Part shown: piece by piece, positions 15,400 through 15,462 of the stretch | Layout: every line of letters starts with the position of its first letter | How positions within the stretch are numbered: position 1 is the stretch's first letter | Virus record (IMG/VR): IMGVR_UViG_3300044621_002214 | Location: 1 to 20,055 of that record | Strand: one strand, 5' to 3' | Source of the DNA: a virus | Length of the DNA: 20,055 nt | The notes under the pieces: model-generated | What the model was told of the DNA's origin: nothing | What the model saw: the letters and a program-made list of their open reading frames with translations, nothing else | The model's database searches: none | Position numbers and translations under genes: made by a program

Positions 15400-15462
15400 G
15401 ATTCACTGATGAGGCTCAAAGGCCGAAACAAAGCAAGGTTTATTCTTTGCTTTGTCTGAATC
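15400..15462 (+). ncRNA. Type I hammerhead ribozyme 1
   Basis: The conserved core is intact: CUGAUGA (15406-15412) and GAAA (15425-15428), with cleavage triplet GUC (15454-15456). Stem I is GATTCA (15400-15405) with TGAATC (15457-15462), 6 perfect pairs. Stem II is GGCT with GGCC around loop CAAA (15413-15424). Stem III is an 11-bp helix including A15428-U15455 (15428-15438 with 15445-15455), one G-U pair, loop of 6. The open end is stem I, so the topology is type I. Self-cleavage is predicted between C15456 and U15457, 22 nt before the next ATG, leaving a leader that starts UGAAUCUUAAAACC. Confidence 0.92.

Follow-up and report, generated by a model that had tools for sequence, protein, structure and literature searches.

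What does a hammerhead ribozyme do between the stop codon of one small phage gene and the start codon of the next? Their role, in bacteria as in phages, is described as an open question (PMC6155905). It is raised again by a 20,055-nt viral sequence (IMG/VR virus record IMGVR_UViG_3300044621_002214, positions 1 to 20,055; hereafter the window), in which the initial annotation had reported a hammerhead of type I flanked by two small phage genes, predicted to cut the operon mRNA 22 nt before the next ATG. The parts of this element, hammerhead 1, and its neighbouring genes are as follows.

14962-15393, + strand: upstream gene, 143 aa, with stop codon TGA at 15391-15393, 6 nt before stem I
15400-15462, + strand: hammerhead 1, type I, identified by core, three stems, fold and model match
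15400-15405/15457-15462: stem I, GATTCA/TGAATC, 6 bp
15406-15412: core CUGAUGA (CTGATGA)
15413-15424: stem-loop II, GGCU/GGCC around CAAA, three Watson-Crick pairs and a U.G pair
15425-15428: GAAA
15429-15454: stem-loop III, strands 15429-15438/15445-15454, 10 bp, or 11 with A15.1-U16.1
15454-15456: cleavage triplet GUC, with U16.1-C17 at 15455-15456
15456/15457: predicted cut, between C15456 and U15457, 22 nt before ATG 15479
15463-15478, + strand: rest of the 22-nt leader (UUAAAACCUUUGUAUC), predicted to stay on the downstream product
15479-15661, + strand: downstream gene, 60 aa, with matches to phrog_29067 and phrog_37263

The CUGAUGA and GAAA core, an NUH triplet, three stems and an open-ended stem I are the marks of the type I form, and all were found in hammerhead 1. 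Both core segments, the GUC triplet, the 6-bp stem I and the 4-bp stem II lie where the initial annotation had placed them, its 11-bp stem III is reached by counting A15.1-U16.1 with the other 10 pairs, and the 22-nt spacing to the ATG is present in the sequence. In RNA folding, this structure was the centroid and, once the flanks were trimmed, also the minimum free energy structure (-22.2 kcal/mol, z -3.0), with a stable stem III.

A chance origin of hammerhead 1 is excluded. In 3000 dinucleotide shuffles of the window, two motifs had at least 12 paired stem bases and none had more than 14, while the same scan counted 20 in hammerhead 1 and 14 in a second hammerhead ~1.1 kb downstream, which the initial annotation had overlooked.

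15999-16520, + strand: gene upstream of hammerhead 2, 173 aa, phrog_10310-like, with stop codon TAA 3 nt before stem I
16524-16576, + strand: hammerhead 2, type I, identified by shuffle scan, stem scan, model match and fold
16524-16529/16571-16576: stem I
16530-16536: core
16537-16548: stem-loop II, its first pair a U.U mismatch
16549-16552: GAAA
16553-16568: stem-loop III, followed by U16.1-A17 at 16569-16570
16570/16571: predicted cut, after A16570, 21 nt before ATG 16592
16592-16786, + strand: gene downstream of hammerhead 2, 64 aa, which travels with the ribozyme in the related locus L009

Hammerhead 2 reads AGTTCA CTGATGA TTCCGTAAGGAT GAAA CACGGGTAAAACCGTG TA/TGAACT, with the slash at the predicted cut. 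It may be slow, given the U.U mismatch at position 10.1/11.1, normally G-C, and the GUA triplet.

Since the Rfam models report neither window copy at threshold, relatives were collected by pattern, and seven distinct hammerheads were aligned. The pattern was derived from hammerhead 1, with four stem I pairs fixed in addition to the core, so that only stems II and III and the outer pairs of stem I give independent evidence; with this limit, 95.8% of cells in the alignment pair and 9 of the 14 pairs have changed on both sides. This level of covariation, present in all three stems, was reached in none of 500 shuffles and was lost when partners were slid by 1-3 columns. A covariance model built from L004, L005, L006 and L029 only, without the window sequences, scored hammerhead 1 at 49.5 bits (E ~5e-12) and hammerhead 2 at 53.6 bits (E ~3e-13). 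In a 70-kb relative, the only match falls in this operon. Three further loci (L051, L018 and L033), with R1 and R2 scores of 26-31 bits, were left out of the viral set described below. With anatomy, covariation and an independent model in agreement, the type I hammerhead at 15400-15462 stands.

The Rfam match that the initial annotation had suggested as a check was not obtained. At the gathering threshold, Rfam gave no match in the window or in six relatives, and RF00163 (Hammerhead_1; gathering threshold 34 bits) had none in the window's record. The best Rfam match to hammerhead 1 was the RAGATH-1 hammerhead (RF03152), at 30.5 bits against a threshold of 56.3; we rejected this assignment, as only model positions 26-77 were matched, and the missing 5´ segment (1-25) explains the low score. 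The two are alike over the core and stems I and III, whereas stem II of hammerhead 1 is an ordinary hairpin, unlike that of RAGATH-1, which we infer to be the pseudoknot form of PMC11300833. Fifteen loci rich in fully paired hammerheads likewise included none that passed any Rfam gathering threshold, indicating that the failure to report the window copies is a limit of the models. A nucleotide search with 6.7 kb around hammerhead 1 gave no match in 50,697 phage records; in phage records no relatives of L006, L060, L069, L105 and L131 were found, and L087 had only a 38-nt match.

A looser pattern, with two stem I pairs fixed, was run on viral contigs and matched at least 119 stretches; all three stems are formed by 122 of the 131 pattern matches listed, compared with 26 of 2620 (1%) when the variable parts were shuffled. 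Together with the earlier loci, the matches listed give 134 distinct hammerheads, nearly all on viral contigs and one on a Mucilaginibacter contig. Among the matches listed, an upstream-frame stop codon lies at -15 to +10 of stem I for 110/134, and such a stop is combined with an ATG 10-50 nt past the cut for 91/134, compared with 2.2% of random positions in the same loci; the distance from cut to ATG has a median of 31 (quartiles 25-36). Two to five hammerheads occur per locus in 22 loci among the matches listed, with two in the window and in L006, four in L087 and five in L069; the two of the window share a phage operon and adjoin small variable genes. Cultured Pelagibacter phages (Autographiviridae) also carry hammerheads among their early genes: the stem scan found two in Eistla EXVC025P and one in HTVC031P, and HTVC142P has a model match. 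The form found in the window is rare in host chromosomes, given that genomes related to the Mucilaginibacter contig (L029) yielded 3 matches in 399 at the family level and 2 in 395 at the phylum level, L029 being counted both times.

Within the window, both hammerheads lie in a one-strand operon whose genes are partly exchangeable.

14763-14794, + strand: match to the Bacteroidota-type promoter consensus (TTG-N21-TAnnTTTG)
14815-15916: block of small genes swapped entirely between phages that are ~95% identical or more on both sides

The promoter match is likely the start of the operon holding both ribozymes, and it falls within the part conserved with the related locus L001, just 5´ of the variable gene block. 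The 60-aa gene after hammerhead 1 has relatives in L002 and L003. Hammerhead 2 is identical in L001 and L009, and between the window and L009 the ribozyme and its leader show no change over 120 nt, compared with a ~5% difference over the whole aligned stretch. In L009, hammerhead 2 and the 64-aa gene that follows are kept while the upstream gene is a different one, an arrangement that links the ribozyme with the gene after it.

We therefore favour, with a probability of roughly 60%, intercistronic self-cutting by a working type I hammerhead that would give the 60-aa gene its own message and uncouple the accessory genes. Cutting of the operon mRNA by hammerhead 1, as the initial annotation had proposed, would fit the one-strand operon, the promoter match at 14763 and the stop-ribozyme-start arrangement seen widely in the set. 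A polycistronic phage transcript would be cut between C15456 and U15457, leaving the 60-aa gene on a message with a 22-nt leader and a 5´-OH end, and the upstream message with stems II and III of the folded ribozyme, and a 2´,3´-cyclic phosphate, at its end. Because the upstream stop codon is 6 nt before stem I, and in most relatives adjoins stem I or falls within the ribozyme, a ribosome terminating there should occupy the 5´ strand of stem I and hold off the cut until it departs. Hammerhead 2 would act likewise for the 64-aa gene, and the net effect would be that dose and decay are uncoupled for exchangeable accessory genes under one promoter. Similar viral ribozymes between stop and start codons probably cut long phage messages into single-gene messages.

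The same geometry could be read from the other side. The ribozyme might chiefly protect the upstream message, the hairpins of the 5´ product serving as a terminator-type 3´ stabiliser and the downstream gene being incidental. Stem III is stable, and the stop codon abuts or overlaps stem I: among the matches listed, the commonest offsets are 0 and +1 (47/112), and in 17/112 the core UGA doubles as the stop codon. We nevertheless consider this reading unlikely, as start codons 10-50 nt past the cut are also far above chance and L009 keeps the element with its downstream gene next to a different upstream gene.

Lower still is the probability that the cut serves decay or restraint: by the logic of glmS, it would strip long transcripts of their downstream message, whose expression would fall. 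The genes adjoining the hammerheads of the set give this idea some appeal. They are small, and their matches include a DNA methyltransferase, a superinfection-immunity protein and an AcrIC5-like protein; hammerheads before accessory genes of the last two kinds could set their dose. The same could hold in L029 (6673-7318), where a hammerhead separates hicA (Pfam HicA_toxin, E 1.5e-22) from an HTH gene that occupies the hicB position. However, the ribosome-binding site remains on the 3´ product: a Shine-Dalgarno-like motif follows the cut in 74/111 leaders among the matches listed, so this product should remain translatable. A 5´-OH RNA end is, moreover, generally not a preferred entry point for 5´-dependent decay.

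Religation of the ends, or release of circular or spliced RNA by paired hammerheads, is brought to mind by the hammerhead pairs that flank single genes in L006 and other loci, but we regard it as very improbable, since many hammerheads are single and a search for such products among clustered prophage hammerheads found none (PMC3088659). The least probable reading, that of a chance resemblance or an inactive relic, could draw on the lack of an Rfam match at the gathering threshold but is opposed by the shuffle test, the covariation, the independent model and the unchanged 120 nt of hammerhead 2 and its leader.

Self-cutting in the cell, as in the favoured reading, would also depend on tertiary contacts. 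Natural hammerheads need contact between loop I and loop II at physiological magnesium. In hammerhead 1, CAAAG of loop II (15417-15421) could pair with CUUUG at 15470-15474, a pairing that singly is no better than chance. Across the set, loop II pairs with bases just 3´ of stem I (at least 4 bp within 8 nt) in 36/126 among the matches listed, while the shuffled control averaged 15.2 and never exceeded 28 of 126; pairing of loop II with the 5´ flank was not above chance in the same set and control. The 3´ tail pairing agrees with the hammerhead pseudoknot that PMC3088659 describes.

Two other elements in the same operon are placed much as the hammerheads are.

15927-15974, + strand: mini-tRNA-like element A, 24 nt before ATG 15999
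18820-18868, + strand: mini-tRNA-like element B, 22 nt before ATG 18891 (start of a 38-aa membrane-like peptide) and downstream of the DNA polymerase beta-clamp gene

Both have a 7-bp acceptor stem, a small hairpin and a 5-bp T-stem with a canonical T-loop, followed by N-CTA (G-CTA in element A). Similar elements were observed in L001 at 4185-4231, 4987-5036 and 7938-7986, so that L001 holds a third, weaker one; across the window and L001 they are about 48-50 nt long and lie 22-31 nt before start codons. The acceptor pairing is kept in relatives despite letter changes (TCCGGAA/TTCCGGA versus TCCGGGA/TCCCGGA), and the search gave no match in 200 shuffles and two weak ones in 1.36 Mb of other loci. 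ARAGORN called neither element A nor element B, and Rfam matched neither in the window at threshold, nor element A even at an E of 1. A T-arm pattern search of 80 loci gave only three matches, all doubtful, which suggests that the elements are confined to this phage group.

The ATG lies 21-22 nt past the hammerhead cut and 22-24 nt past the acceptor stem of the mini-tRNA-like elements, and this near-equal spacing suggests that the two do the same job by different chemistry. In L003 (2010-2100), we observed a full tRNA-Leu gene directly before the relative of the gene after hammerhead 1, so that tRNA and hammerhead occupy the same slot. With this replacement as a hint, we tentatively suggest that one accessory-gene operon is punctuated by two unrelated but similarly placed cutters, the hammerheads and mini-tRNA-like elements that would be cut by host enzymes of tRNA processing, each exchangeable gene possibly having its own 5´-end maker. 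In organelle transcripts, tRNA punctuation and t-elements provide a parallel, in that intergenic tRNA-shaped RNA marks the sites at which polycistronic RNA is cut. The putative cutting sites of the window differ in being only 48-50-nt mini-tRNA shapes.

The type I hammerheads of bacteria and prophages resemble those of the window in core, topology, cut site and clustering around small genes (PMC3088659). Clusters of this sort around phage genes have been on record since 2011, with a proposed role in processing long phage transcripts, and cleavage of prophage members was shown both in vitro and in E. coli (PMC3088659; Perreault et al. 2011), so the kind is already known. In HHphage of the haloviruses HF1/HF2, a hammerhead likewise precedes a phage start codon, by 13 nt, and a mapped mRNA 5´ end lies within 3 nt of the cut, although these are archaeal viruses and the core is a variant with insertions (PMC3088659). 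In comparison with PMC3088659, the fit from stop to ribozyme to start is measured here over 134 examples (among the matches listed), in a population missed by Rfam 15 at the gathering threshold in the loci tested. Our additions are thus the measured geometry, the abundance on viral contigs, the Rfam gap, cultured phages for tests and the mini-tRNA-like companions; the geometry may possibly have been reported elsewhere, our search having covered the open-licence literature.

A common form of hammerhead thus fits snugly from stop to start codon on roughly a hundred viral contigs or more, those of cultured Pelagibacter phages included, and it can now be counted with a model where it had escaped Rfam thresholds in every locus scanned. 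The favoured reading predicts mRNAs whose 5´-OH ends lie a few tens of nt upstream of start codons, testable in growable hosts, and the spacing common to hammerheads and mini-tRNA-like elements suggests a general phage route to independent, exchangeable operon genes.

Related elements were also seen in other loci. Type I hammerheads with stem I GATTAA/TTAATC occur at 1501-1551 of L049 and 1501-1555 of L050; no clear terminal repeats were found at these loci, where the hammerheads lie in a conserved leader ~200-290 nt upstream of IS1595-family transposases. In L126, L109 and L162, which came from the pattern matches, core motifs occur without a local stem II hairpin; stem II can instead pair with bases 5´ of stem I, and these elements resemble pseudoknotted hammerheads.
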